This document shows, piece by piece, positions 3,165 to 34,740 of a stretch of 34,991 bases of DNA (positions are counted from its first letter, which is position 1; each line of letters opens with the position of its first letter). Under the pieces are notes generated by a model. That model was not told the origin of the DNA and ran no database searches. It saw only the letters and a list, made by a program, of their open reading frames with translations. The position numbers and the translations under genes were made by a program. This stretch comes from Nitrososphaerales archaeon (GTDB lineage: Archaea; Thermoproteota; Nitrososphaeria; Conexivisphaerales; UBA164), in assembly GCA_023256355.1 (NCBI GenBank), contig JAGDXJ010000060.1, positions 1 through 34,991 on the forward strand, given 5' to 3'.

Positions 3165-4484
3165 TCAAACGATAGATGAGATTATTAAAGCAACTAGCAT
3201 GAAGGCTATAGAAAAGTACATGTGAAGTGCCGTAAAGAACCCAGTCTGCTGATCCAGTATCTTTCTTTTCCAGCTTTTTGAGTTCATCGCTATCTTTGTA
3301 AGCCTGTAAGCCCACGGCATGGTAAGGAAAGACCCAAGTATCGGCCAGTAAGTTCTGTCCAGAAAAACCGCAAACGCAAAAAGCGCGTAGCTCAGCCATA
3401 TAAGCGCAAGATAGTATGCTTTTGATCCTTTTTCTCCAAGCAAAAGGGCAACAGTTTTGATACCGGCCCTTTTGTCATCTTCCATATCTCTCCAGTTGTT
3501 TGCGTGGAGGACAGCAACTATGACCATGCCTATTGCTACCGATATAAGGACGCTTGCCATGCTTATCTTAGCTCCCATAAGGGCTTCTGTGCCCAGGACG
3601 ATGCCCGGTCCAAATGCTAACATGACCCCAAGGTCTCCAAGCGCTAGCCACTTAAGCCCAACCTTGGGTATCCCGTACATAAGCCCTGCAACAAGCCCCA
3701 ATATTATAAAGGGGACTATTGAAGCCCTCGCTAAAGCAAGATAAACGCCTATCATGAGCGATGCTGTAAGCAGAAATAAAGAGTAAGCTAGCTGGAACCT
3801 CGGCTTCATAAGTCCGTCAATAAGAACCCTCGAACCCGCTGAACCCATTCCGTTAGGCAGGTCTACTTTGCTTATGTAATCAAAATAATCGCTGAGCGCG
3901 TTAAAGGCACCGTGAACCATTATTATGCCTAAGATGGCAAGCATGAAGAATAAAACCACTATCTGTCTTGCTAGAAGAACGCCAAGGATCATCGCAGAAA
4001 CGCTCATCTGAAGGCTCCATGGCCTTAAAGCCCTTAACAGCTTAACCGGCTCTTTTTCACTCAACTCTTCAAGGTTAAAATCAGCATAGTACTTTTTTGG
4101 CTCATCGCTCATGTCCGTAACCCTTATCCTCTCGGGAACAAGCCTAACAAGAACTACGTTTCCCATGGTTATAAAAAGAAGGTCTTCAGGAACTTTGGAA
4201 AGCAAAACTCCCCTTTCTCTTTCGAGCTTTGCCGGGTCGCCAAGGACTTCAACTTTTCCTTCTCCCTGGACAAAAAGGTCTGGCCTGTTCAGATCTATTG
4301 AAAAAGAAACCCTTGGGTTTTTCTGAACCGCTTTTAGCGTCCTACCTTCATTTTCAAGAAGAAAGATAAACCCATCATGCATAGCATAATAAACTTTTAT
4401 GCCCCATGGACCCTGATCGTCACAGACGGATATGTTCATTGTTTTTGCCTTTCTTAGAAGATTTATGACACGCCTGTCAATCAT
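3165..4484 (-). CDS. Fusion of PNPOx-like flavin-binding domain and UbiA-type (MenA-like) prenyltransferase
   Basis: The protein has 439 residues in two parts. Residues 1-130 resemble the split-barrel pyridoxamine-5'-phosphate-oxidase-like fold, a soluble FMN or F420-type domain; note the WGIKVYYAMHDGFIFLL strand pattern. Residues 145-439 are a complete UbiA membrane domain with both Asp motifs intact: N195/D199/D202 (NALSDYFD) and N330/D333/D337 (NNWRDMEDD, then KRAG). MenA-type enzymes prenylate dihydroxynaphthoate in menaquinone synthesis, and other archaeal UbiA members make ether lipids, so the substrate is not certain. The fusion suggests flavin chemistry or sensing coupled to prenylation on the cytoplasmic face. 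A TATA-like CTTAAATAA sits about 27-34 nt before the start, consistent with a leaderless message. The neighbour converges. Confidence 0.85.
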   Translation of the reverse strand: MIDRRVINLLRKAKTMNISVCDDQGPWGIKVYYAMHDGFIFLLENEGRTLKAVQKNPRVSFSIDLNRPDLFVQGEGKVEVLGDPAKLERERGVLLSKVPEDLLFITMGNVVLVRLVPERIRVTDMSDEPKKYYADFNLEELSEKEPVKLLRALRPWSLQMSVSAMILGVLLARQIVVLFFMLAILGIIMVHGAFNALSDYFDYISKVDLPNGMGSAGSRVLIDGLMKPRFQLAYSLFLLTASLMIGVYLALARASIVPFIILGLVAGLMYGIPKVGLKWLALGDLGVMLAFGPGIVLGTEALMGAKISMASVLISVAIGMVIVAVLHANNWRDMEDDKRAGIKTVALLLGEKGSKAYYLALIWLSYALFAFAVFLDRTYWPILGSFLTMPWAYRLTKIAMNSKSWKRKILDQQTGFFTALHMYFSIAFMLVALIISSIV

Positions 4485-4906: not shown

Positions 4907-9173
<4,267 letters not shown>

Positions 9174-9238
9174 TAACATATTAAAGAAAAACACTAATTT
9201 AAAATTTAAGTAGAAAACATAATTTAAGTTTTAACGTT

Positions 9239-9290
9239 GCGGGGTGAACTACCCTGACCTTGCGGTCAGGGCTTCCCGGTTCATCGCCGC
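9239..9290 (-). mobile_element. IS200/IS605 (TnpB-type) end remnant with hairpin
   Basis: The stretch holds a perfect 8-bp stem CCCTGACC-TTGC-GGTCAGGG (9252-9271) inside an outer imperfect repeat (GCGGGGTGAAC / GTTCATCGCCGC). On the minus strand it reads GGGAAGCCCTGACC...GGTCAGGGTAGTTCACC, the form found at the 3' ends of IS605/IS1341-type tnpB units, where the guide (omega) RNA scaffold ends. One minus frame encodes CGDEPGSPDRKVRVVHPA, like archaeal TnpB tails. No intact tnpB is present upstream, so this is a scar. Confidence 0.5.
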
Positions 9291-9672
9291 ACTTGCTTTC
9301 ACATGCGCTTACCACTTGATATCTTGCTCAAGTCAAATTTTAGTTTGATTTTTTATTTTCTGATCTTTTTTGTGCAGATTTGTCTAACGAGTTCTTTCGT
9401 TCTTTTTAGCTCTAGACATAAATCTGTAAAGAACACCTGCTGTGACTTAAAAAGCATTCCTAAGGGGGACTTAAGCCTTATTGACCTAAGTAAGAAAAAA
9501 ATAATATAAAGACCGCATTTACATCACGGATCAGTTTACCTGCTGCCTGTCATCCCTGTAAAGGTCAATGTATATTTGGATCCTTAACATTAAAAATTTT
9601 CCGCAAAATCATGCCGATTGCTCTGTACACATTTAGCTCTTGAATGAGTTTTTAACATTAATCAGTTACAGT
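9291..9672. other. Intergenic, decayed sequence between IS remnant and SDR gene
   Basis: No convincing gene is seen. A minus-strand frame at about 9370-9490 (KSQQVFFTDLCLELKRTKEL) is protein-like for about 40 residues but lacks a start and family match. It could be debris of the IS or of an older gene. A plus-strand frame of 68 codons at 9303 looks like its shadow. Confidence 0.4.
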
Positions 9673-21110: not shown

Positions 21111-21200
21111 CTATGTTAATCGTGCATAATGCCAGAATTTAAACTTTGAATAAGGTTTTGAATGAAATTATGATTTTTTTACGATTAAAAAAACAAAGGT

Positions 21201-22373
21201 TTAGCTTGCCCCGTAAATTTCTTCTAAAATTCTCCATTCGGCTGTGGCAACAGATTCCCATTTATATTTAGAAGCGTACTCCTTGCCCTTTTTACCTAGT
21301 TCTACCCATTTTTCGTTTTTTAAAATACTTTGCGTTTCGGTAATCAATGATCCAACGTCTAAAGGTTTAACCTTTATAACCGCATCCGTTAAATAATTCA
21401 TCCGTATTGCCGGAATCGAGTACGAAACAACAGGGGTACCACACGATAAGGACTCTAAAACAACTAATGGAAATGCATCCAATCTTGTAGGGTAAACAAA
21501 AACTTTTGAGCTCTTTAATAATTCTGCGCTCTCTTTACTGGTTAGGTTCGTCATCAGCTTTACCCTATTTTTAAGACTGTTTTTTGTTAAATATTGGTTT
21601 ATTTCATTTTTTACAGTTTCAGAAGCGAAACCAGCAATCACTGCGTTCACATAAGTCATTTTCTTTACAACTTTCAGGAAGTCATAAATCCCTTTTTGAG
21701 GAATTAGTCTTGCGTAAAAAATCAAATCTATATTTTTATCAGTACCATCATAACATGTATCTACGCCGTTACCTGGTTTAACAGTGTATAAATTTAGATT
21801 GATTCCTATTTTTTTCATTTCATATCCAATCGATTCAGATACAGTGAGTAAAGGGCGTTTAAAAGCTAAAAACTGATAAATTAACAACCGTAAATAAGTT
21901 TTAATAGCCTTAGATTCGCCATAATTAAAAATAAACTTAAAGTTTTTTCTGAAGAGCTCATAACCATGACCCTCCTCAAATATCAAAGAGCCCACGCCAG
22001 GGGATAGTTGAAGCAATTGCGTCCATCTAATTCTTGAAAGCTGAAAAGCCAAAGGGAAATACTGATTTGTAAAAGGAAAATAGATGAAGTCCACGCCATA
22101 TTTTTTAATTTCTGATGACAAAATTGAACCGTATTTAAATATACCGTATACGCTTTTTATATAACCTTGTATAGGAGGCAACGCTACAGCGTTATCTAAA
22201 GTTTTAAGCATCTGTTCTTCTTTTAAAGCGGTAATTTTTGATCTAAAATTTTCAAGCTTATCCTTAGGCATCATAAAAATAAATCTTTTTGCAGGAAAAA
22301 GTGTTAAAGTCCTTTCTAAATGATTGACACCGCCGCCCAATTCATCAGAATAGGAAAATATGCCTATGACCAT
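21201..22373 (-). CDS. Glycosyltransferase family 4
   Basis: The protein has 390 residues with a Gly-rich N-terminal loop (DELGGGVNHLERT). The GT-B linker strand FYARLIPQKGIYDFLKVV and the C-terminal VYPTRLDAFPLVVLESLSCG motif are hallmark GT4 features with the conserved Glu. It lies 90 nt upstream of the sulfatase-like gene in the same direction. Base composition is more AT-rich than the heptose operon, as for the other genes between 21 and 30 kb, hinting at transfer. Donor unknown. Confidence 0.88.
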   Translation of the reverse strand: MVIGIFSYSDELGGGVNHLERTLTLFPAKRFIFMMPKDKLENFRSKITALKEEQMLKTLDNAVALPPIQGYIKSVYGIFKYGSILSSEIKKYGVDFIYFPFTNQYFPLAFQLSRIRWTQLLQLSPGVGSLIFEEGHGYELFRKNFKFIFNYGESKAIKTYLRLLIYQFLAFKRPLLTVSESIGYEMKKIGINLNLYTVKPGNGVDTCYDGTDKNIDLIFYARLIPQKGIYDFLKVVKKMTYVNAVIAGFASETVKNEINQYLTKNSLKNRVKLMTNLTSKESAELLKSSKVFVYPTRLDAFPLVVLESLSCGTPVVSYSIPAIRMNYLTDAVIKVKPLDVGSLITETQSILKNEKWVELGKKGKEYASKYKWESVATAEWRILEEIYGAS

Positions 22374-22702
22374 AATATTTACTTTATATTAATGGTTCAT
22401 AAGTTTTTCAAACCCACAGGTATCTGAGTTATAAACCAGTACAGTGTAATATAGAATCCGATTTAAAATCTATTTTAATTTTAAATATATTACAAATAGG
22501 TTATAGTATGCACTTGCGACCAACTTACAGTTGCTGTTTATCACTGGATCTCCAAAATCATTTGGACATATATTTAATGATATTTATCGCCGTTAACAAT
22601 TTCATTTATATAGAGTAGTGTATTCTCTAAGCTTTTTATATTAAATTTGAAGAACTTAAGAGCGTTAAAGTTATAAGCTGAAAAGCGTATTTAAAGCGTA
22701 AA
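22374..22702. other. Divergent intergenic region between two glycosyltransferases
   Basis: The region is very AT-rich and has no open frame. It probably holds both promoters: TTAATATAAAG 10-20 nt before 22373 on the minus strand, and GTTATAAGC about 27 nt before the TTG at 22703 on the plus strand. Nothing else is recognised. Confidence 0.4.
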
Positions 22703-23623
22703 TTGAAAATTTCAGTAATTTCTCCTACATACAAAAGAGGCTGGAGCCTGCCTTATATGCTTAACAGTTTAAGAACTCAAACGTTAAAACCCGATGAAAT
22801 CATAATAGTGCTGAAAAGATCGGGCGACGAGTCTGAATCTGTCATCAAAAATTATAACGATCTGCCGATTAATGTAATAGTACAGAACGAGGGAAGAATC
22901 GTCCAGGCTTATGATATAGGTATTAGAAGCGCCAATGGAGATCTGTTACTTTTTATAGACGACGACGCCATAGCAGAACCTTCATGGGTGGAGAAATATG
23001 TTAATTTTTTTAATAGCGTTGAAGAAGTTGGCGGTGCTTCTGGAAACGTATATATAACAGAGATTGATGAATCTGGAAATCAGAAAGTAAAATATGAATA
23101 TTCTAATTTTCCAGATACGCGTAATGTCTTTTGGCGGAAACCCTTAAAAGGTTTAGAAAACTTTTGCGAAGGAATTTCTATTTCGGGGTTTAACTACAAG
23201 TATAAATGCAATGAGAAACTAAAATATTATAAATCAACTGCGTTAATTGGAGTCAATATGGCAATAAAAAAAGAGTCTATTAGCGGATTGAGCCTTTCTA
23301 GTTTATTTAAAAATAGTCATATTGGATTTCATTTTGAAAACTTTTTAGCGTATTATGTTATAACTAAAGGTTATTTTACCTATAAAATTATAAATAAGGA
23401 AATTTCTCCAACTGTTTTTCATATAGAAAATTTATCAACGACTAGATCCAAAGGTTGGAAGTTTGAATTCTGGAAACATTATGACATCGTTAAGCAGTTC
23501 CACAGGTTAAAAAAAATTAATGCAAACGTGTCATGGACCGCATATACTATGGCTTGCATAGCAACTTTAAGGAGACATCCTATTCCGAGGTTATTAGCTA
23601 CTGTTTATGCGCAATTTGTGTGA
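22703..23623 (+). CDS. Glycosyltransferase family 2 (GT-A)
   Basis: The protein has 306 residues with a TTG start and a TATA-like box about 27 nt upstream. The N-terminal ISVISPTYKRGWSLPYMLNSL and the acidic FIDDDAIAEPSW (about 82-93, DxD-type metal site) are clear GT2 marks. A later TRSKGWKFEFWKHYD segment fits the acceptor-binding half. The hydrophobic stretch near the C terminus is weak, so the protein is probably membrane-associated at most. The gene converges and overlaps by 19 bp with the next GT4. Likely part of a lipid-linked or surface glycan pathway. Confidence 0.85.
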   Translation: MKISVISPTYKRGWSLPYMLNSLRTQTLKPDEIIIVLKRSGDESESVIKNYNDLPINVIVQNEGRIVQAYDIGIRSANGDLLLFIDDDAIAEPSWVEKYVNFFNSVEEVGGASGNVYITEIDESGNQKVKYEYSNFPDTRNVFWRKPLKGLENFCEGISISGFNYKYKCNEKLKYYKSTALIGVNMAIKKESISGLSLSSLFKNSHIGFHFENFLAYYVITKGYFTYKIINKEISPTVFHIENLSTTRSKGWKFEFWKHYDIVKQFHRLKKINANVSWTAYTMACIATLRRHPIPRLLATVYAQFV

Positions 23624-24741
23624 TACATCAATTTTAAAATAATTTCTTCATATTTTACGCCTTTTATATCTAAAGAATAATTTTCTGCTAACTTTCTTGC
23701 TTCTATGCTCATTGATTTGAGTAAAGTTGGATTGCGCTCAATATTTGTTAAAATTTTTTCGTAATCATTATCATTATCAGCAACAAAGCAGTTTGCCCCA
23801 TCAATCAATCCGGGTATCGACTCAGCAACTGCTTTGCTTAGTACTGGCACAACTCCACATGCCATAGCTTCAATAACTGCAATACTAAAGCCTTCATAAA
23901 CTGATGGAAAAATAAATATATCAGACGCCTGATAATATTCAATTAATAAATCTTCTTGTATGTAACCTAACAATTTGATGTTGCTAGAATTATAATAATG
24001 AGAAGTACCGCCTATTGCGATAAGATGTATATCCTCATGCGCTTTAATTAAACTTATAACAAAATCCAGCCTTTTTCTTTTTGCATCTACACCAACCCAA
24101 ATGGCATAAATTTTGTTTTGATCTAATCCCAATTTACTTCTCTTTAAAGTTTTGTTAGCTGGTATATACCTATCGGTATCTACAAAATTTTCGATGACTA
24201 TTATATCGTTCCTTTTGCTTACCTTTTTTATATATTTCAACAAACTGGGTGACACTGAAGTTACCACGCTTGAGCGCCTTGATCCAAAAATTTCTAACCA
24301 ACCCTTTATTGTAAGGCTAATTTTTCCTATAAGGCTTAACTCTCTTTTTTTAAATGCAAGCAAAGAACTTCCGTGCCAAGTCATTATGGTTTTTATTCCT
24401 TTTATAGTTGTAATAAAAGCTCCATTATCCCCGTTTATATGATATAAATCAAAATTATTCCTGTTTTTCAAAACATAAAAATAAATCCATAAATTGTAAA
24501 TTATTTTGTTTAAAAAACTTGGAAAACCTTGGAAAACCTTGGAACCTAAACCTATCTTGTTAATTTTATGCGGTAATGATTTTAGCCTCTTGTTCTTATT
24601 GTAACTTTTATTATATAAAAATGTGATAGAAAATCCTTTTCTACTTAAAAAATGTGAAAGATTTAAAGCAAATGTTTCTAACCCTCCCCCTGCTTCAGGA
24701 TCATCATATACGATTTCTAAAATTTTTATCAATAGCCACAT
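23605..24741 (-). CDS. Glycosyltransferase family 4
   Basis: The protein has 378 residues. DPEAGGGLETFALNLSHFL near the start is the GT-B donor-side loop, TWHGSSL and SPSLLKYI are typical of GT4, IWVGVDAKRKRLDFVI is the linker strand, and FPSVYEGFSIAVIEAMACG is the catalytic motif. A tandem CTTGGAAAAC-type repeat lies at about 24518-24545 within the N-terminal third. An approximately 90% identical but broken copy of codons about 31-97 is found at 28290-28485, so a related gene once existed in the inserted segment. It stands alone in its direction. Confidence 0.88.
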   Translation of the reverse strand: MWLLIKILEIVYDDPEAGGGLETFALNLSHFLSRKGFSITFLYNKSYNKNKRLKSLPHKINKIGLGSKVFQGFPSFLNKIIYNLWIYFYVLKNRNNFDLYHINGDNGAFITTIKGIKTIMTWHGSSLLAFKKRELSLIGKISLTIKGWLEIFGSRRSSVVTSVSPSLLKYIKKVSKRNDIIVIENFVDTDRYIPANKTLKRSKLGLDQNKIYAIWVGVDAKRKRLDFVISLIKAHEDIHLIAIGGTSHYYNSSNIKLLGYIQEDLLIEYYQASDIFIFPSVYEGFSIAVIEAMACGVVPVLSKAVAESIPGLIDGANCFVADNDNDYEKILTNIERNPTLLKSMSIEARKLAENYSLDIKGVKYEEIILKLMYHTNCA

Positions 24742-24890
24742 ATATGTAAAATGTATTTAAAAAGTTATTTAATCTTAATTTCTTTATAAATTTAAAACCT
24801 TAACTCCGCAAAAATTTAGGGTATAATAGGTTAAATTTTAAGTTTATAATTTATGAAATATAGCAAGATAGAAAAGTTGATTAGGGAGAT

Positions 24891-26300
24891 ATGTATACCC
24901 TAATAGGGTATACATTTGGAAGACTGATAAAGGACGTTCTGAAAAATGAAAGGGCTAAAAGAGGTATACCTATTGAGGTCAAGAAGATAGGTGGCAATTA
25001 TTTCGCTTATAAATCAACAACAGTCTGGGACAAAGAAAAGAAGAAGAGGAAGAAGGTATCAGTGTACATTGGCAGGATAATTGAAAACGGAATAGATCAA
25101 GGGAGCTCAAGGTCTATATTTGAATACGGTAACGCAAGGCTTGTCTGGGAGATACTTGAAGAGGTTATGCCATACCTGAAAAGGTCATTTCCAGATGACT
25201 ACAACGAAATAATGGCGATGGCGGCTGTAAGGGTTATACACCATGTGCCCATTAGGCTTATGAAGAGCTCATGGGAAAAGCTGTACGTTTCTCAGAAGGT
25301 TGATGCTTCACTTTCTCCTAACACAGTCTCTGAAAAGCTGAAAAGGATAGGGTCTGATTACACAGCACAGGCAGAGTTTTTCATGCGTTTGATGAAAGAT
25401 AGCAAATACCTCATATTTGACCTCAGCTCTATCTTCTCAAGGTCAGAGAACCTTAACATGGCTGAAAAAGGATATAACAAGGATGACCTTTACTTAAAGC
25501 AGGTCAACTTTCTGCTTATGTTTTCTCACGACAGGAAAGTTCCTGTAATGATAAAGGCCTTGCCCGGGTCTGTTAGAGATGTAAAGGCCATAAAGGACGT
25601 AATGGATGAATACGATCTTAAAGGATGCACGCTTATAATGGACAGGGGCTTAGCGTCCATAGAGCTTGCAAGAGAGCTAAACAGTAATGGAATCGCATTC
25701 GTTTTCCCTCTCAGGAGGAATTCTTTGATGATAGACTATAGCATGAAGCTTGAACTTAGCTTCATGTACAGAGATAGGGGAATAAACTGCGGAAGGAAGA
25801 AGGTTGAAGAAGGAATATTCCTGTACATCTACGAAGACACTAAGCTGAGGTACGAAGAGGAAACAAACTTCATATCGATGGTTGAAAACAAAGAAAAAAG
25901 AAGGGATGAGCTTGAACAGGAGAGGATAAAGTTCGGAAAAATTTCTCTGCTATCAAACATTGACTCTGATCCAAAGCGCGTTTATGGGCTTTGGAAGGAG
26001 AGGGAAAAAGTGGAACAGGCTTTTGATGCAATGAAGAACGAGCTCGAGAACGACAAATCTTACCTTTCTGACTACGATGCAGTAAGGGGATACTTCTTTG
26101 TATCCTTTATATCGCTGTACGTTTATTTCAGGATACTTGAAATCATAAGGGAGAAAAGGCTTACTGGAAAGGTATCGGTTAATGAAGTGCTGTTCGAGCT
26201 CTCAAAGGTCTATACCATAAATTCCAAGAAGCTAAGCACTGTACCAGCAGGAGTGATCAGGCTTGTTAATGAGCTTGGATTGAACGGACTTATTCCCTAA
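24891..26300 (+). CDS. DDE transposase, IS4/IS1634-like
   Basis: The protein has 469 residues and looks intact. The first catalytic Asp is probably in LIFDLSSIFSRSENL (about 170-184), the second in TLIMDRGLAS (about 247-256), and the Glu in WKEREKVEQAFDAMKNEL (about 370-387), the Y-(2)-R-(3)-E-(6)-K-like block. The ATG at 24891 is preceded by GGAGAT. The start region carries a perfect 9-bp inverted repeat that overlaps the start codon. Base composition is like the main genome, so the element is adapted or long resident. Confidence 0.85.
   Translation: MYTLIGYTFGRLIKDVLKNERAKRGIPIEVKKIGGNYFAYKSTTVWDKEKKKRKKVSVYIGRIIENGIDQGSSRSIFEYGNARLVWEILEEVMPYLKRSFPDDYNEIMAMAAVRVIHHVPIRLMKSSWEKLYVSQKVDASLSPNTVSEKLKRIGSDYTAQAEFFMRLMKDSKYLIFDLSSIFSRSENLNMAEKGYNKDDLYLKQVNFLLMFSHDRKVPVMIKALPGSVRDVKAIKDVMDEYDLKGCTLIMDRGLASIELARELNSNGIAFVFPLRRNSLMIDYSMKLELSFMYRDRGINCGRKKVEEGIFLYIYEDTKLRYEEETNFISMVENKEKRRDELEQERIKFGKISLLSNIDSDPKRVYGLWKEREKVEQAFDAMKNELENDKSYLSDYDAVRGYFFVSFISLYVYFRILEIIREKRLTGKVSVNEVLFELSKVYTINSKKLSTVPAGVIRLVNELGLNGLIP
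24892..24914. promoter_or_regulatory. Palindrome over the transposase start codon
   Basis: TGTATACCC and GGGTATACA form a perfect 9-bp inverted repeat around a 5-nt spacer, beginning one base after the A of the ATG. It could be an RNA hairpin that hides the start or a binding site for the transposase. A GGGTATA half motif is also at 24821. Confidence 0.55.
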
Positions 26301-26503
26301 AATATTGCGAAGTTAAGGTTTAAAAAATAAAATTTTTTGTATCGACTAAATTATCATTTAGAAATTGATTGCTAATATAAATGCCTTATATTAGCATCTT
26401 TTATTTTTTTAACAAAAACCTTTTGTCTGCCATAAAGAAGCTTCCTTTCTTACTAACCTTTTAACTTCATTAAACTTATTAATTAAACCAAATTATTTTA
26501 TCT

Positions 26504-27499
26504 ATGCAATACAAAATTAAAGGAAAAAACCTTGAAGATTTAAACATACTTGTAACAGGTGGTGCTGGCGTAATAGGAAGCGCTATTGTCAAAAGACTAC
26601 CAGGAAAGATCACCGTGCTTGATAACCTGAGTTCAAGCACAACAGATAATATAAAAGAGCTCATTAATGAAGGAAAAATAAATTTTATAAAAGGAGATAT
26701 AGAAAATTTTGAAGCTGTCAACGAAGCTAGTAAAGGAAAGGACATTATATTCCATCTTGCAGCAAACGCAGATATAAGGTATAATGAAAGTAAGCCAACC
26801 AACATCGATCTTAAAGTTAACACAGTGGGAACATATAACGTCTTAGAAGCCATGAGAAAAAACGATGTGGACCTGATCGTTTTTACCTCTTCATCTTCAG
26901 TATATGGCTATGCTGAAAAGATCCCTACCCCTGAAACATATGGACCACTTTTCCCTGAATCCCTTTATGCTGCTTCTAAGCTTGGCGCTGAAAGCTTTAT
27001 ATCGGCTTTTTCAAAAATGTTTGGGTTTTCTGCATATATATTTAGGTTAGCTAACATAGTTGCTCCAGCTTATAGAAGCATAGGAAAAAACGTTATACCA
27101 GATCTTATCTTTAAGCTTCTTAAAGACCCCAATAACCTTCAAATTCTAGGCAACGGAAAGCAAGAAAAATCTTACCTTTATGTAGATGATTGCATAGACG
27201 GTATGATTTACCTATCTGACAGATCGCCAAAAGATTTAGATGTTTTTAACCTTGGGAATGTTGACAGCATAACGGTTGATAAAATAGCAAGGATAATCGT
27301 GGAAGAAATGGGACTTAAAGAAGTAAAGTTCCACTATACTGGAGGAGAAAGAGGATGGAAAGGGGACGTTCCAAAAACAGTGCTAGACATAAGCAAAGCC
27401 CTTTCCTTTGGCTGGAAACCCACTCTTAATTCGGCTGAAGCAGTAAGGAAATCAGCGAGAGAAATAATAAAAAGAATAAAAAATCTTTCTCGTTTTTGA
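26504..27499 (+). CDS. NAD-dependent sugar epimerase/dehydratase, GalE-like (extended SDR)
   Basis: The protein has 331 residues. The dinucleotide motif is VTGGAGVIGSA (17-27), the active site is TSSSSVYG with YAASK, and ILGNGKQEKSYLYVDDC (about 215-231) is the conserved substrate-domain strand. These are features of NDP-sugar 4-epimerases such as UDP-glucose 4-epimerase; the exact sugar is not readable. It probably supplies an NDP-sugar to the neighbouring glycosyltransferases. An AT-rich promoter region lies between the IS end and the start. Its last 43 codons or so are duplicated at 30110-30240. Confidence 0.88.
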   Translation: MQYKIKGKNLEDLNILVTGGAGVIGSAIVKRLPGKITVLDNLSSSTTDNIKELINEGKINFIKGDIENFEAVNEASKGKDIIFHLAANADIRYNESKPTNIDLKVNTVGTYNVLEAMRKNDVDLIVFTSSSSVYGYAEKIPTPETYGPLFPESLYAASKLGAESFISAFSKMFGFSAYIFRLANIVAPAYRSIGKNVIPDLIFKLLKDPNNLQILGNGKQEKSYLYVDDCIDGMIYLSDRSPKDLDVFNLGNVDSITVDKIARIIVEEMGLKEVKFHYTGGERGWKGDVPKTVLDISKALSFGWKPTLNSAEAVRKSAREIIKRIKNLSRF

Positions 27500-28111
27500 A
27501 CATGACTTAAATCAGTATAAATTTTAAAAAGCTTATATGCAAAGCTTGATTTTTTTAAAATGTTGATGGATAAAGATAAAAAACTCACGGTTAATGGTCA
27601 GGGAACAATCAAAAAATACTTATTTGATGATATAAGGCTCGTACGAGACGGTAAGAAAAAAATTCTGAAAGTTTCTGAACCATTTAAGAGCGTACCGCCT
27701 TCAATCAAGATAGCAACGATTCCGACAAAACGGGTTAATGAAGTTGTGAAGTTTTATAAAGGGAAGCTCAATGAAGTGATCCTTGCAGATGAAGATAACC
27801 CAGTAAGCTTAGGTGGAGGTTTCGTCCAGATCGATGGTCAGGACGTGCTTTTTGTAAAAAGAGATCTTAACGCCATCAGAAAGCCGGGGCTTCTTGACAT
27901 TTCTGCGGGGCTTTTCGATGAAATCTTCAGAAATCCTGTAGAGATGATGGTGTCAGAGACTGCAGAAATAGTTAGACGTCAAGGCGAAGATTTTATTCTA
28001 CCAGTTCCAGAAGAAAATGCAATAAAAAGCGACTACATAGAAACTTTAAAGAAAGAGTTTAAAAAATCTCTAGATTCTTTAAAAGTTTCTGGCAGAGTCA
28101 GAGAGGTTAAA
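27370..28111 (+). repeat. 742-bp direct repeat, copy 1 (epimerase 3' end plus 5' part of the Nudix-like gene)
   Basis: By eye this segment is identical to 30111-30852 except for two substitutions near 27385-27390 (GCTAGACATAAGC against GCTATACACAAGC). It spans the epimerase C terminus, a promoter and 184 codons of the next gene. Similarity continues in degraded form for about 25 bp before 27370. Confidence 0.95.
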
Positions 28112-28117
28112 TGGTAA
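27560..28117 (+). CDS. Truncated copy of the Nudix-like protein
   Basis: The first 184 residues equal those of the 316-residue protein at 30301; then one Trp and a stop follow at the edge of the duplication. It keeps a promoter (TTATATG about 24 nt upstream) and start codon, so the N-terminal domain alone could be expressed. It lacks the C-terminal 132 residues and is separated from the two partner genes. Treat it as a duplication remnant unless expression is shown. Confidence 0.75.
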   Translation: MLMDKDKKLTVNGQGTIKKYLFDDIRLVRDGKKKILKVSEPFKSVPPSIKIATIPTKRVNEVVKFYKGKLNEVILADEDNPVSLGGGFVQIDGQDVLFVKRDLNAIRKPGLLDISAGLFDEIFRNPVEMMVSETAEIVRRQGEDFILPVPEENAIKSDYIETLKKEFKKSLDSLKVSGRVREVKW

Positions 28118-28289
28118 ACCAATAGAGTTATGAAACTATGTGAAAATTATCTAAACAATTCATATTTTTAAAAATCTAAATCAAATATAATTTGCTTTGC
28201 ATTTTATATTTCTATAAATTCTGGTTGTTGTAATAGTTGATAGGTTATAATGAATTTTCATACAGTCTCATAAGCGTCTTGATGTTACA

Positions 28290-28485
28290 ATCGAATTTAT
28301 CCCTGTTTTTCAAAACATAAAAATAAATTCAGAAATTGTAAATTATTTTCGTTTATAAACTTGGAAAACTTTTGAACCTAAACCTATCCTGTTAATTTTA
28401 TGCGGTAATGATTTTAGCCTTTTGTTCTTATTGTAACTTTTATTATATGCAAATGTGACAGAAAATCCTTTTCTACTTAAAAACT
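28290..28485 (-). pseudogene. Fragment of a GT4 glycosyltransferase gene
   Basis: This stretch matches 24464-24655, the codons about 31-97 of the GT4 gene at 23605-24741, at roughly 90% identity. It has small indels and lacks the tandem repeat units of the intact gene. Both ends are missing; on the right it abuts the transposase fragment at CTAGCCCC. The 170 bp to the left (28118-28289) is AT-rich and holds nothing recognised. Confidence 0.75.
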
Positions 28486-28489
28486 AGCC

Positions 28490-28910
28490 CCATCCGGCTC
28501 TATTACTGAATTTTCTTTAACTCTTTTATCCAGCTTTATCACGCTCCTAATACCCTGCACGAACTTGCGGATCGTGCTCTTCGGTACTTCAACGTTTGTA
28601 ATTTTCTTTAACATCTTACTGGTTTCCATCATAAGATGCAACATATGCAATATCCGCTAACATTACCTTAAGTTCCCTTGAATACTTCTGCTTAGTTATT
28701 CCGAGAACATCGAGCAAGGGCGAAGCTATCCTGCCATCTTTGTGCAGCTTTACAATTTTTAAAATTACAGATCCTATGCTTTTTACAAGCTCCCTTTCGT
28801 AATACCCAGATTTTCTGTACCATCTGCTCATCATGTATTCAACTATCTGCTCCTGAATTTCTTCAATTCTTTCCTTAAGTCTCAGTGCAGATTCTATCCT
28901 TTCTGCTTAA
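28490..28910 (-). pseudogene. Truncated, frameshifted transposase N-terminal fragment
   Basis: Minus-strand frames read ALRLKERIEEIQEQIVEYMM, then SRWYRKSGYYERELVKSIGS and ASPLLDVLGITKQKYSRELK to a stop near 28616. After a frame shift they continue as KMLKKITNVEVPKSTIRKFV and RSVIKLDKRVKENSVIEPDG. The pattern resembles the N-terminal half of ISM1/UPF0236-like transposases and ends just where the first catalytic Asp-Gly block begins. It is inactive debris; the family name is tentative. Confidence 0.6.
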
Positions 28911-29051
28911 ATTATAGCGATAAGGTCTATATCTTTACATTTTTACATCTAACACTGGCTTGTTCCTTGCCTAACCCGTCACTAAAAGGTGTTAAAATAT
29001 TAAAAAGCTGTAAAAAATAAATATAATGATTGATTTAATTAGATTATAAAA

Positions 29052-30050
29052 TTGGATCAAAAAATAATTCATAATGGTAATTTGAAAAGTCCTTTAAATA
29101 TAGAAAGTCTAAAAATTTCATTTAATTTAATCGGTTATAGAAATGACCTATTTACGAGCGATAACCCAGAAGATATCATTGAATTCTATAATACTTTTAA
29201 GAGCAAAGAAAGCCTGATAAAATGGATGAAAGAAAGACCCAAAGGAGTTACGTACATTAATGAAGTTGATGGAAGAAAAGACATTATAGTAGTTATACCT
29301 ACAGCAAACGTTAATGGAAAATATGCCAAAGCCTGTCGGGACGAGATATTTAAAGGATTACATATTATATTTGTCGAAAGTGGAGAAGTAAAAGACCCTT
29401 ATTTTAATGTTGCTCATGCAAGCAATGTTGGCTTTAAAAAAGCGTTGGAATATGATCCAAAGTGGATAATATTCTCTAACGATGATATGTATAAGATCGA
29501 TGATGTATCTGTGTTAATTGAAGAATTAAATAAAATAAATCCGGCAACCGTAGATGTTGTATTTGCAGATAGTTATCCTTGTTTTCATCATAGTTATGAA
29601 AGAGTGTTGGGAACAAAGAGATCCATTTATGATTTCGCGTCTTCTTTTTACCATTTATTTTTAAACAAACAAAATAAACCTAAAACGGTATATAAAATGA
29701 AAAAAATTAATAAAACATTTAACACTAAATTGTTAATAAGAAACCGTTATAGCAAAATAGTATTTAAAAAAGCCCGTAAATTTATTGAGATCGGGGATTT
29801 TGCAATTTTTAGTGGGATCTGGGTGCGTAACATGAAAGGAAATATTTTCGATGAAACTTACATTAATGCGCATGATGATTTAGATCTATCATATGTTTTA
29901 TCCAAATCTAACAAAGATTATTACAAAATTATAAAATATCAAATCGGATCGTTTTCAGGCACTTCTTTAGGCCTTGGTATTACAAGAGATCTCAGGAGAA
30001 TAGCGGCAGATGTTTATTTAGAGTCTAAGTTCTTAGGTGATTTTGCATAG
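29052..30050 (+). CDS. GT-A-fold glycosyltransferase (GT2-like)
   Basis: The protein has 332 residues with a TTG start and AAATATAAT about 27 nt upstream. Mid-protein it shows VAHASNVGFKKALEYDPKWI followed by FSNDDMYKIDD (NDD as the metal-binding motif), typical of GT2-type enzymes, and a second acidic pair in NAHDDLDLSYVL. The N-terminal 75 residues before IIVVIPTANV are unusual for the family. It is very AT-rich and Lys/Asn/Ile-heavy. It is the only intact gene in the ~2-kb segment flanked by the direct repeats, so it is the likely cargo of the integration. Confidence 0.8.
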   Translation: MDQKIIHNGNLKSPLNIESLKISFNLIGYRNDLFTSDNPEDIIEFYNTFKSKESLIKWMKERPKGVTYINEVDGRKDIIVVIPTANVNGKYAKACRDEIFKGLHIIFVESGEVKDPYFNVAHASNVGFKKALEYDPKWIIFSNDDMYKIDDVSVLIEELNKINPATVDVVFADSYPCFHHSYERVLGTKRSIYDFASSFYHLFLNKQNKPKTVYKMKKINKTFNTKLLIRNRYSKIVFKKARKFIEIGDFAIFSGIWVRNMKGNIFDETYINAHDDLDLSYVLSKSNKDYYKIIKYQIGSFSGTSLGLGITRDLRRIAADVYLESKFLGDFA

Positions 30051-30109
30051 TATATATTTTTTAGGAAATATAAGCTTCGCTAAAGTGGAAAATAGAGGAT
30101 AAAAGAGAG

Positions 30110-30240
30110 TTCCAAAAACAGTGCTATACACAAGCAAAGCCCTTTCCTTTGGCTGGAAACCCACTCTTAATTCGGCTGAAGCAGTAAGGAAATCAGCGAG
30201 AGAAATAATAAAAAGAATAAAAAATCTTTCTCGTTTTTGA
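30110..30240 (+). pseudogene. Duplicated 3' end of the GalE-like epimerase gene
   Basis: About 43 codons plus the TGA match the epimerase C terminus, with two changes (Asp to Tyr and Ile to Thr). There is no start or upstream part; degraded similarity continues weakly before 30110. It marks the left part of repeat copy 2. Confidence 0.9.
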
Positions 30241-30852
30241 ACATGACTTAAATCAGTATAAATTTTAAAAAGCTTATATGCAAAGCTTGATTTTTTTAAA
30301 ATGTTGATGGATAAAGATAAAAAACTCACGGTTAATGGTCAGGGAACAATCAAAAAATACTTATTTGATGATATAAGGCTCGTACGAGACGGTAAGAAAA
30401 AAATTCTGAAAGTTTCTGAACCATTTAAGAGCGTACCGCCTTCAATCAAGATAGCAACGATTCCGACAAAACGGGTTAATGAAGTTGTGAAGTTTTATAA
30501 AGGGAAGCTCAATGAAGTGATCCTTGCAGATGAAGATAACCCAGTAAGCTTAGGTGGAGGTTTCGTCCAGATCGATGGTCAGGACGTGCTTTTTGTAAAA
30601 AGAGATCTTAACGCCATCAGAAAGCCGGGGCTTCTTGACATTTCTGCGGGGCTTTTCGATGAAATCTTCAGAAATCCTGTAGAGATGATGGTGTCAGAGA
30701 CTGCAGAAATAGTTAGACGTCAAGGCGAAGATTTTATTCTACCAGTTCCAGAAGAAAATGCAATAAAAAGCGACTACATAGAAACTTTAAAGAAAGAGTT
30801 TAAAAAATCTCTAGATTCTTTAAAAGTTTCTGGCAGAGTCAGAGAGGTTAAA
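30111..30852 (+). repeat. 742-bp direct repeat, copy 2
   Basis: This is the second copy of 27370-28111 at an offset of 2741 bp. In this copy the 5' gene part continues into the full-length 316-residue gene, while the epimerase part is only a fragment. It is the reciprocal of copy 1. Confidence 0.95.
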
Positions 30853-31251
30853 GCGAACGTACTTCAAGACGAAAGCTATACTGTTCTTGAATACGATGGC
30901 GAAGAAAGCATAGGCGTGATCGTTTCCCTTGAGCCGGACAGCGGTAGTGTTGAAATAATCGGCGTGCTAAAGGTTGATCTCACATCAGCTGAATATTCCG
31001 ACGGAGAATACAGATCGGCTGCAGAAGGCCTTTTGCCGCTTAACAGGGAAATTCACCAGGTCAACCTAAACAGCCTCGTGGACAGGGTCTGGAGGGGTTT
31101 TAAACAGATAAGCGCAACTGACTTCATCGAGGTCATAAGAAAAATAAAAAAAGAAGGACAGAAAGTTGCGTTTACGAGCAAGGTTGCAAACGCCCTTATG
31201 GCTGAACCGCTTTACAGGTATCCCATACGTAAAGCTCTGGAAGTGAAATAG
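30301..31251 (+). CDS. Unrecognised protein with degenerate Nudix-like region, first of a three-gene operon
   Basis: The protein has 316 residues. Around residues 80-145 it reads VSLGGGFVQIDGQDVLFVKRD, then PGLLDISAGLFDE and MMVSETAEIVRRQGE. This has the strand-loop-helix rhythm of Nudix hydrolases, but the canonical Gx5Ex7REUxEExGU box is not intact, so catalysis is doubtful. The second half (about 185-316) has an all-beta-looking part and a basic C terminus. The promoter TTATATG lies about 24 nt upstream. It is followed after 3 nt by the next gene. No confident family; the role may be nucleotide or NAD-derivative sensing, by inference only. Confidence 0.7.
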   Translation: MLMDKDKKLTVNGQGTIKKYLFDDIRLVRDGKKKILKVSEPFKSVPPSIKIATIPTKRVNEVVKFYKGKLNEVILADEDNPVSLGGGFVQIDGQDVLFVKRDLNAIRKPGLLDISAGLFDEIFRNPVEMMVSETAEIVRRQGEDFILPVPEENAIKSDYIETLKKEFKKSLDSLKVSGRVREVKANVLQDESYTVLEYDGEESIGVIVSLEPDSGSVEIIGVLKVDLTSAEYSDGEYRSAAEGLLPLNREIHQVNLNSLVDRVWRGFKQISATDFIEVIRKIKKEGQKVAFTSKVANALMAEPLYRYPIRKALEVK

Positions 31252-31254
31252 CAA

Positions 31255-32664
31255 ATGGATCAGTACACTCCTCTTAAAGATTCAAAGGACATATTCTATT
31301 TTACGGGCATGGCAAGCGACAAGAAGAAGTTCAACAGCGTTCTCAAGGCAACCTTTGCTTCTCCTTCTGTACATAAAGCGGTAAACAACGTCTACAGGGC
31401 TATGAAAGGAGAGGGCCTAGCTTCTGACGGATGTACAGAGCTCAGCAGGTATGTGGACTTTCTTACTGAGGAACTAAAATGGCACATGCTCATTTCTCAT
31501 CTTTCTGACCTTCACCCAGCTTTCATGTTAAGGGAGCTGAAAGGCAAGCCGGTGAGCATAACGTATGCTGACATGCCTTACTTTGACACTAAATACATAA
31601 CAACGGCTTCATTAACCTTACCCAACTCACAGGAAGAACATGATCTCGAGCTCGTGCTGAAGGAAGCTGTCAGAAACATGAAAGAAAAAGAAAGTTCCGT
31701 TGCCTTGGAATGGATGGAAAATGAAGAGCAGCCTGAAAGGGGGATATGGCCTTACTACGGGATATCTCTGTTCAGCGCTGTTCTTTACCAGCTCTGGTAC
31801 GAGCTTTACAACGCTGAAACCGGAAAGCTCAGAGTTTACACTGGCAACAACGTTAAATCTCAGGAATTTTTTGAACAGGAAACGAATAATGAAACTTTTG
31901 CAAAACTGCTTGTCATGGCTTCAGGCAGCCCAGATTACATTGAGCTAACTGACGATGAGAAGAGCGCTGACGTCTTAGTAAGCGTTGGCATTGATGGAGA
32001 AAAGCCCCAGGAACAGAGCGGGAAATCGATGACGGTGCCTGTCCTGAGGCATTTTTCTATACCGACCAAGGCATTGAGGGACAGAATCCTCATGAAAGAT
32101 GGGCCTGTAGGTGTATTTGCCGTGGGCGGGCTCGAGCATAACATTTCAATGCTTTACTTTTACATAAAGGAAAGGTGGTTGGGAAACGAAGATGTCAGAA
32201 TATACAACAACTTTTTCGACCTCCGGAAGGCGCTTTCGGCCAGGTTAATATCGGCCAGCGGCGAGAGGTTCAGGGTGGCGGGAAACCTGGTCGAGATGCC
32301 GATAGTCCTAGCTCACTCAGGCTTCATCCCGAGGCACAGGTCTTTTTTCGGAATACTGTACAATTTTTTCAACGCGGACGGCAAGGAAATAAGGATGGTT
32401 CACGTTATAGGACTATCCGCCTTCCTTTCAAAGCTCGGCGCGCAGCTCTACCTTTTAGATGAGTTCAAAAAATCCTTCAAAGGAAAATATCTGCTGAACA
32501 GCCTCGTACAAAACTATGCTTGGAAGGTCTTTAAAGTGGGAAACGATGATAAAGAATTTGAGGAGATTTTATCGAAGTGGGACAGAGAGGATCTTTTCAA
32601 CGACTATGATAGGTCTCAGGAAGCGCTTAAAGAAGTAGACAGATCTGTTATCGAGGTGAAATGA
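31255..32664 (+). CDS. 469-residue protein of unknown function, middle gene of the operon
   Basis: I recognise no family. The N-terminal half is helical with acidic patches; SDLHPAFMLRELKGK is at about 83-97. The C-terminal half has alternating strands and glycine turns: VGVFAVGGLEHNISMLYFYI (about 282-301), then a MVHVIGLSAFLSKLGAQLYL segment (about 381-400). It faintly recalls a GGP-N / IAG-x(n)-G layout of some uncharacterised bacterial sensor proteins; that resemblance is weak. No transmembrane helix or signal peptide is seen. The start is 3 nt after the previous stop and the end overlaps the next ATG (ATGA), so the trio is translated as a unit. Confidence 0.75.
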   Translation: MDQYTPLKDSKDIFYFTGMASDKKKFNSVLKATFASPSVHKAVNNVYRAMKGEGLASDGCTELSRYVDFLTEELKWHMLISHLSDLHPAFMLRELKGKPVSITYADMPYFDTKYITTASLTLPNSQEEHDLELVLKEAVRNMKEKESSVALEWMENEEQPERGIWPYYGISLFSAVLYQLWYELYNAETGKLRVYTGNNVKSQEFFEQETNNETFAKLLVMASGSPDYIELTDDEKSADVLVSVGIDGEKPQEQSGKSMTVPVLRHFSIPTKALRDRILMKDGPVGVFAVGGLEHNISMLYFYIKERWLGNEDVRIYNNFFDLRKALSARLISASGERFRVAGNLVEMPIVLAHSGFIPRHRSFFGILYNFFNADGKEIRMVHVIGLSAFLSKLGAQLYLLDEFKKSFKGKYLLNSLVQNYAWKVFKVGNDDKEFEEILSKWDREDLFNDYDRSQEALKEVDRSVIEVK

Positions 32665-33227
32665 GCTTGCAGATTTCTATTGAGGTCTATTCTGTTGTTG
32701 CTGAAATTTTAATAACTTTGCCGCTGATCATTTTAATGTTCAAAGAGATAGAGAGCTTGATTGAAAAGGTAAAAGGGTACATAAACGCTATGAACGCCCT
32801 TAGCGAAGATGTTGCTGCTCTAGACAATGAAGCCATAGATCATCTGTACACAATGATCGAAGATCTGAAAATTGGACGTTCAGTTAAAAACGTCGAAAGA
32901 CCAAAGATCGTAAGAAATAGAGAAATAGAAAACGCAAAAAGGAAGTTCGGCTCAAAGATAGATGAAGAGCTCAAAAAAGAAGTTGAGCTTAAAATAACTG
33001 CAAAGAAATACGCCAAACAAGTGCTCATATTTCCAGTTCTGGTTGTGTCTCTTTCGATGATCTTTTACATAGAAGGGTTAACTCTTCCTTTTGTTTTGCC
33101 ATTAACTATAATATCCACGTTGCTGTATCTTCACCTCATACTCCACTTTGAACTTCGCAAAGAAATTACAGAACTAATTGAACGCGCAAAAGAAATTGTA
33201 TACCCAAAATCTCAAAATTTGGGATAG
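32661..33227 (+). CDS. Membrane protein with three helices and a charged linker
   Basis: The protein has 188 residues. One hydrophobic helix lies at about 8-27, followed by about 85 mostly charged, helical residues with Glu/Lys/Asp-rich heptad-like stretches (about 28-115). Two more helices lie at about 117-136 and 138-158, before a charged tail. The layout would place the coiled linker between the first helix and the terminal pair on one membrane face. Its ATG overlaps the stop of the preceding gene. With an upstream soluble pair it resembles sensor-plus-membrane-effector modules, though no known effector family is recognised. Confidence 0.75.
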   Translation: MSLQISIEVYSVVAEILITLPLIILMFKEIESLIEKVKGYINAMNALSEDVAALDNEAIDHLYTMIEDLKIGRSVKNVERPKIVRNREIENAKRKFGSKIDEELKKEVELKITAKKYAKQVLIFPVLVVSLSMIFYIEGLTLPFVLPLTIISTLLYLHLILHFELRKEITELIERAKEIVYPKSQNLG

Positions 33228-33421
33228 CTTGCAACCAATAGCTGACTAATGCCGGCCTTTTATTCTTAAAATTGCTTTTAATTAATAATGAATTGCGGGC
33301 CATTCTCCAGCCATTAGATCCTTTGTGCGCATAATTTATTGCAGAAACGTGCTTTAAAATCAAAACACCATTTATGAATAAATCTTCAAAGAATATACAA
33401 TAGATTCATTTACAGAGAATT
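33228..33421. other. Intergenic, no gene seen
   Basis: The 194 bp are AT-rich with TTATTCTTAAAATTGC-type runs that may end the operon. No RNA or open frame is supported. Confidence 0.4.
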
Positions 33422-33475
33422 TATATCGATTTACCGATATACTTATAAATTGCTTTTACCAATCCTATATCGGTG
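33422..33475. promoter_or_regulatory. Palindromic operator and TATA box of the Gly-rich regulator
   Basis: TATATCG (33422-33428) faces CGATATA (33435-33441). ACCGATATA (33433-33441) faces TATATCGGT (33467-33475) as a 9-bp inverted pair. A TATA box TTATAAAT (33443-33450) sits between them, about 33-40 nt before ATG 33483. A protein bound to both half sites would cover the promoter, consistent with autoregulation by the following winged-helix protein. Confidence 0.65.
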
Positions 33476-33482
33476 ATCAGAT

Positions 33483-33815
33483 ATGATGAGAGGTAGAAGG
33501 AGAGGTTTCGGGATGGGATGCATGGGACCTTATGGGTACGGCGGTTACGGATCATGGGGACCAGGACCTTATGCTTTTGGGCTTAACCCTTGGGGCTTCC
33601 CCAGAAGGTCTGGCTGGATAGTGTTCAGCGCTCTGGCTTCAGGCCCAAAGACCGAACAGGAGATCAAGGATTATATGGCAAAGCTTACAGGACTGCAGAT
33701 CACTTACAGCCTTCAGCCATTCTTAGATTACCTTGCAAGCACTGGAGCAATCAAGAAGCGCGAAGACGGGAAGTATGAGCTTGGCTCTTATCCCTACTGG
33801 TACCCCCCTGTCTAA
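33483..33815 (+). CDS. Gly/Tyr/Pro-rich N terminus plus PadR-like winged-helix regulator
   Basis: The protein has 110 residues. Residues 1-40 are almost all Gly, Tyr, Pro, Trp, Arg and Met with two adjacent Arg clusters and one Cys. Residues 42-105 form a winged helix: SGWIVFSALASGPKTEQEIK, a recognition helix near 68-85, and a wing with KKREDGKYELG. PadR-type regulators with Gly-rich ends bind palindromes such as the one found directly upstream, so autoregulation is likely. The inducer is unknown; the low-complexity end may bind metal or mediate self-association. ATG 33486 is an alternative start one codon later. Confidence 0.75.
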   Translation: MMRGRRRGFGMGCMGPYGYGGYGSWGPGPYAFGLNPWGFPRRSGWIVFSALASGPKTEQEIKDYMAKLTGLQITYSLQPFLDYLASTGAIKKREDGKYELGSYPYWYPPV

Positions 33816-33936
33816 GATTTTTAATTTTTTTATATAATCAATTCTTTATTTTTGTTATAGGCTCAGAATTTAGCTTTACTTTGTATAAAAATCGCAAATA
33901 AAAGCTTAAATCGTAAACTTTGGTATATATTGTAAA

Positions 33937-34740
33937 TTGGAAGCTGTAAAAAAGGATAACCTTAGCCTTGAAGCAAAGGAAAAGATAGGCATTACGGTCA
34001 TAAAGGACGCCATTAAGAGGTTCAGCCGAGGGGCCATAGTGTGGAGCGCAGGGAAAGATAGCACTGTAGCTCTGCATCTTTTGAAAAGAACAGTAGAAGA
34101 AGAAGGGCTAGATATGCTGCCAGCAATATTCGTTGACCACGGGGACCACTTTCCCGAAACGCTAAAAATGCTGGATGAAGTGAGCAGGTCGTGGAACTTC
34201 AGGGTAATACCTGCAAGGAACGACGATGCGCTGAGCCATGTAAAGGACGGGAAGATCTATGTATCCGAGCTTAACGAGAGAAACAGAAGAGAAGTAGAAA
34301 AAATAGGGTTTAAGGGCGACAGTTTCGAATATTCGCTTGAAACAGATGTAGGAAACCACATACTCAAGACTGTCCCTTTGCTTACGACAGTTGAAAAGTA
34401 CAGGCTTGAGTATCTGATCATAGGTATAAGGTGGGACGAAAACCCTGCAAGAGCTGTTGAAGTGTTCATAAGCAAGAGGGAAAACCCTGATCACTACCGT
34501 GTGCATCCTATACTTCCTTTTACTGAAAGGGACATATGGAGCTACATATTCAAGTACAACCTGCCGATACACCCAAAGTACAGAGAAGGATACAGGTCAA
34601 TAGACGGAATAAAGGACACAAAGAAGTTCTCTGACAAGCCTGCATGGGAACAGGACCTTGAGAACACAAAAGAAAGGATGGGAAGGTCTCAGGACAAAGA
34701 AAACATGATGGAAAGGCTCAGAAAGCTAGGGTACATGTGA
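33937..34740 (+). CDS. PP-loop ATPase of the PAPS-reductase/CysD-like family
   Basis: The protein has 267 residues. The PP-loop SAGKDS lies at 37-42, followed by FVDHGDHFPET (about 65-75) and the late VHPILPFTERDIWSYI segment with HPKYREGYRSIDGI (about 210-223), the CysH/CysD-type substrate region. Members either reduce phosphoadenylyl sulfate or form the small subunit of ATP sulfurylase. The C-terminal redox Cys of CysH is absent, and no Cys occurs in the protein, so a reductase is unlikely; a CysD-like or other PP-loop adenylation role is better. The start is TTG 33937, with CTTAAATC about 27 nt upstream. Confidence 0.8.
   Translation: MEAVKKDNLSLEAKEKIGITVIKDAIKRFSRGAIVWSAGKDSTVALHLLKRTVEEEGLDMLPAIFVDHGDHFPETLKMLDEVSRSWNFRVIPARNDDALSHVKDGKIYVSELNERNRREVEKIGFKGDSFEYSLETDVGNHILKTVPLLTTVEKYRLEYLIIGIRWDENPARAVEVFISKRENPDHYRVHPILPFTERDIWSYIFKYNLPIHPKYREGYRSIDGIKDTKKFSDKPAWEQDLENTKERMGRSQDKENMMERLRKLGYM

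Follow-up and report, generated by a model that had tools for sequence, protein, structure and literature searches.

How two near-identical direct copies of a DNA segment came to flank 2 kb of sequence where a glycan-gene island ends is the question raised by this locus. The window, meaning the whole stretch of 34,991 nucleotides that was analyzed, comes from contig JAGDXJ010000060.1 of a Nitrososphaerales archaeon (GCA_023256355.1). Judged by the relatives recovered, this member of the Nitrososphaerota probably falls near Conexivisphaeria. Positions 27370 to 28111 (copy 1) and 30111 to 30852 (copy 2), both in forward orientation and offset by 2,741 bases, are identical at 740 of 742 bases, with the only mismatches at 27386 and 27390. 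The remainder forms an exact tract of 721 bases (27391 to 28111, identical to 30132 to 30852). Among the 701 kb of contigs sampled from the same genome, no exact repeat is longer, which excludes a chance origin. A search across the entire draft genome (1.19 Mb in 66 contigs) recovered the two copies and a 69% identical homologue on a second contig, C25, and no third close copy.

Gene content differs reciprocally between the copies. Copy 1 contains the 3′ end of a full 331-amino-acid NAD-dependent epimerase/dehydratase gene (26504 to 27499, forward strand; Pfam Epimerase, E = 3e-45), a 60-base spacer, and the first 184 codons of a second gene, which is cut cleanly at 28111/28112 to leave an open reading frame (ORF) of 185 amino acids (27560 to 28117, forward strand). 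Copy 2 joins an end fragment of the epimerase gene to the full 316-amino-acid version of the second ORF (30301 to 31251, forward strand). Both the near-identical 742-bp repeats with their two substitutions and this reciprocal arrangement had been described in an initial sequence-only reading, and both were borne out. The name "Nudix-like" given there to the 316-amino-acid ORF was not: searches of Pfam and NCBIfam yielded no family match even at E = 10, and the core of the Nudix box (GX5EX7REUXEEXGU) reads SETAE where REUXEE is expected. A fold model of this protein was unusable (pLDDT of 36).

Such an anatomy is an exact fit to Campbell-type integration, the mechanism first proposed for this locus, in which a circular molecule, bearing 2 kb of cargo along with the 742 bases of homology, would enter by one crossover. 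As in known cases of that process, a homologous segment is repeated directly on both sides of the insert and the truncated genes are reciprocal. The proposal is compatible with the anatomy, but the results do not separate it from unequal exchange, an older duplication that was homogenized, or an assembly loop.

The two edges proved to be asymmetric. Homology had been said to start at 27370, but a decayed extension continues for about 53 bases farther left (27315 to 27367 versus 30060 to 30108, approximately 67% identity with gaps). Its anchored extension score was 10, a value attained in 0 of 400 shuffles, at 1 of 6,000 random genomic loci, and at 0 of 3,055 GC-matched loci; a smaller first test using loci from the AT-rich end of the window gave 2 matches in 400. 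An independent protein search likewise extended into an epimerase remnant left of copy 2. This remnant (30060 to 30131, forward strand) abuts the exact tract of copy 2, carries indels and an in-frame stop, and reads RG-stop-K-RVPKTVL where the intact epimerase gene encodes RGWKGDVPKTVL. Copy 2 thus adjoins an old, decayed epimerase stub. No homology was detected to the right of 28111/30852, where the break is clean. This asymmetry is unexpected from the fresh insertion of a clean circle and expected if the donor already carried the stub; clean edges at both ends would be expected of a simple Campbell case, though they are not strictly required.

The same edge bears on a different history, in which an old in-place duplication was later homogenized over 721 bases by gene conversion. 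Read rightward, identity climbs from approximately 67% to 91% to 100%; read leftward across 27391, homology drops through the same steps and acquires indels, much like the edge of a conversion tract. Identity and homology also end together on the right, as this history would have it. However, consensus collapse by an assembler produces equal identity without any conversion (PMC8021871), and we regard later homogenization as unlikely.

Most of what lies between the copies is debris. The non-coding start of the insert (28112 to 28274) includes a segment (28131 to 28248) that is 78% similar to an intergenic stretch in a genome of the same family (G010:C56). It is followed by a fragment of a group-1 glycosyltransferase gene (28275 to 28483, reverse strand), 86 to 88% identical to positions 24432 to 24651 of the window, and by a decayed N-terminal remnant of an ISH6-family transposase (28490 to 28965, reverse strand). 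The DNA of the remnant is 65% similar to locus L033 of another genome (G005), where a 339-amino-acid ORF matches the NCBIfam ISH6 model at E = 4e-83. An intact 332-amino-acid ORF (29052 to 30050, forward strand) probably encodes a GT-A (family 7-like) glycosyltransferase. Weak matches around residues 102 to 183 agree on this plausible assignment, with Pfam Glyco_transf_7N at E = 0.48, galactosyltransferases in the PDB at E = 0.32, and a PHROG galactosyltransferase at E = 0.014; the fold model was again unusable (pLDDT of 31). Of the original description of the cargo as a GT-A gene plus debris, the second half stood, represented by the glycosyltransferase fragment and the ISH6 remnant, while the first half stays at the level of these weak matches.

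GC content is 0.30 in the insert, 0.34 in the island to its left, and 0.42 to 0.44 in the outside flanks. The insert is island-type material, with debris like that of the adjoining glycan-gene island. No replication, partition, or integrase gene was recognized in the 2-kb insert, and a check for integrases, recombinases, or intact transposases yielded the decayed ISH6 remnant as the only trace. A search for a tRNA or RNA-family target site near the insert was also negative. The insert has the makeup of neither a tRNA-targeting nor a transposon-type integrative mobile element. The 332-amino-acid ORF had no relatives in a set of 60 related genomes, from which a same-species genome is absent, or among plasmids and viral contigs.

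Several results count against Campbell-type integration. No replication or integration gene was recognized, the glycosyltransferase-like ORF had no plasmid or viral relative, and the 316-amino-acid ORF had no phage or viral relative. Searches of plasmids, phages, and viral contigs likewise returned no donor for the insert, and the analysis recovered no circle or replicon. The cargo is decayed island debris, a decayed left edge with a clean right edge is not predicted by the simple model, and a recent date is unsupported. Despite the exact fit of the gene anatomy, we consider insertion of a circle by a single crossover quite unlikely.

Comparison with C25 placed the repeat in a wider context. 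The insert sits at the right end of a variable, low-GC (approximately 0.34) glycan-gene island (21154 to 30265) lying between a conserved sulfatase-like gene (19.8 to 21.1 kb) and the 316-amino-acid gene. The latter is the first member of a conserved block that continues with 469-amino-acid, 188-amino-acid, 110-amino-acid, and PAPS-reductase-like ORFs (31255 to 34740, forward strand). The block, including the 316-amino-acid ORF (67% amino acid identity to its homologue there), recurs in the same order on C25 at 74% DNA identity. Left of the block, C25 carries a single, distantly related glycosyltransferase gene and then a sulfatase-like gene, so that about 9 kb in the window corresponds to one different glycosyltransferase gene on C25. 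Because block order is shared and a different gene occupies the island position, the boundary at the right edge of the island is a site of gene turnover.

C25 is either a paralogous locus or another strain. At approximately 74% identity it was too diverged to be used as the empty site. It was also considered and rejected as an allelic bubble, given this low identity and a contig end that lies in a short repeat common to contigs C9 and C42. No genome of the same lineage was found in which the locus is empty or in an intermediate form. Within the island, an apparently intact IS1634-family element (24784 to 26332) lies directly upstream of the epimerase gene, with a 469-amino-acid transposase (NCBIfam, E = 4.5e-41) and imperfect inverted ends (24784 to 24836 and 26279 to 26332).

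Whether the tandem order and age of the copies can be trusted depends on the assembly. A survey of 701 kb of contigs from this genome found 15 exact overlaps of exactly 55 bases, each touching a contig end, which identifies the assembly as a short-read de Bruijn graph with k = 55. We take this value to be the usual final step of SPAdes-type short-read assembly, and a same-genus relative has NODE/cov contig names. In the same 701 kb, the 721-base repeat was the only exact repeat longer than 55 bases that was fully traversed within a contig. Contig C17 (L086) ends inside its own 158-base repeat (4327 to 4484 and 7498 to 7655), a loop that the assembler did not close. When the tandem arrangement was compared with a single-copy chromosome plus a 2,741-base circle, k-mer sets were identical at k = 22, 34, 56, 128, 400, and 700, so the graph alone cannot tell the two apart. 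The tandem order of the two copies is not proven by a k = 55 assembly.

These results give some weight to the possibility that the chromosome has one copy and that the 2,741-base loop is a separate circle or minority form, run into the contig at the 721-base node. The k = 55 graph, the lack of any other traversed repeat of this kind, and the end of C17, which indicates that the assembler does re-enter repeat edges, all agree with it, as do the shared k-mers. Assembly of a circle that lacks a replication gene would, however, require it to be sufficiently abundant, and the junctions from repeat to insert and from insert to repeat still demand a circle or a tandem somewhere. In addition, neither end of the exact tract occurs on any other contig of the bin. 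We judge such an assembly effect to be somewhat unlikely.

Age is subject to a similar caution. When two paths are almost identical, metagenome assemblers of this type merge the small differences between them into a single consensus (PMC8021871). Only the outer 55 or so bases on each side of the tract are shielded from collapse by unique flanks, and both surviving differences lie no more than 55 bases from the unique flank on the left, in the zone immune to collapse. Near-identity of the copies may thus be partly a product of consensus collapse and cannot date the event. The earlier deduction from two substitutions, that the event was recent or the copies homogenized, does not follow; a recent date is unsupported, though still possible.

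Our tentative preference, held at somewhat less than even confidence, is that recombination produced the duplication and left a scar where the variable glycan-gene island ends on the right. The resident order was probably a glycosyltransferase-like ORF, a decayed epimerase stub, and the full 316-amino-acid gene. A second piece, consisting of an intact epimerase gene and the start of the 316-amino-acid gene, would then have been placed upstream by homologous recombination within the 721-base tract. The incoming piece would have been joined to old island debris at 28111/28112 by a second, non-homologous joint, and the donor, whether linear or circular, could have been island DNA of a relative or a sister copy that had slipped. 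We infer this crossover and order of events from the reciprocal anatomy of the two copies with their exact tract, the decayed left homology beside a clean right break, the island-type cargo, and the turnover at the boundary. Such a scar could have arisen by Campbell integration, by unequal exchange, or from linear DNA that was taken up and joined illegitimately at one end. Against the scar, a Campbell donor already carrying the decayed stub would give the same picture. A 2,741-base circle that carries a surface glycosyltransferase gene and pops in and out through the 721-base homology at the island edge is very improbable; if real, this cassette would switch surface glycans within a population without a dedicated recombinase.

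Features of the locus have counterparts in other archaea. Glycan gene sets are known to recombine in Haloferax, for example (PMC5867893). The island described here resembles variable surface-glycan islands such as the agl clusters of that genus, for which homologous recombination is the usual route of exchange, in being a low-GC cluster of glycosyltransferase, epimerase, and sulfatase genes with IS elements, pseudogene debris, and a gene content that varies between related loci, but it belongs to a different lineage, and its duplication is known from one draft genome. At the tRNA-Thr locus of Caldiarchaeum, also from a community-derived genome, the population is heterogeneous and a duplicated gene fragment lies 1.8 kb upstream of the intact gene (PMC3293823), much as a fragment lies about 2 kb upstream here. 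Unlike the present insert, the Caldiarchaeum insert encodes a predicted recombinase and targets a tRNA gene (PMC3293823). The duplication is an ordinary kind of feature, and most likely an ordinary recombination scar. It illustrates gene turnover where a glycan-gene island ends in a poorly known, uncultivated archaeal lineage. It also illustrates that, when a metagenome is assembled from short reads, near-identity of two repeats can neither prove their tandem order nor date an insertion.

The block to the right of the repeat was also surveyed in other genomes. A scan of a genome collection with the PAPS-reductase protein led to a same-genus record, EvPrim.Bin21 (Thaumarchaeota archaeon), while the 316-amino-acid protein had no match in the scan. 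A same-genus genome contains the PAPS-reductase and 110-amino-acid genes, and the rest of the block was not found there. The 316- and 469-amino-acid ORFs are adjacent in the window (30301 to 32664) and on C25 (L008, 1710 to 4062), and a single further genome of the order (G016:C30, 5.9 to 8.2 kb; L005) has a diverged pair in reverse order, including a weak homologue of the 316-amino-acid ORF. Neither ORF had a convincing family match across the libraries searched, and PADLOC gave no support for the pair as a defence module.

Two non-coding elements were observed elsewhere in the window. An element of about 240 bases (9229 to 9479), without an Rfam match, has complete or partial copies in at least 15 sampled contigs of the same genome at 65 to 91% identity; its start (GTGAACTACCC...GGTCAGGGCTTCC) resembles what we take to be IS200/IS605-type right ends. 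Positions 562 to 1084 form an imperfect, non-coding palindrome of 523 bases that is 68% identical to its own reverse complement and contains several TTAGGTAAACA / TGTTTACCTAA ends, and this is possibly a MITE-like element.
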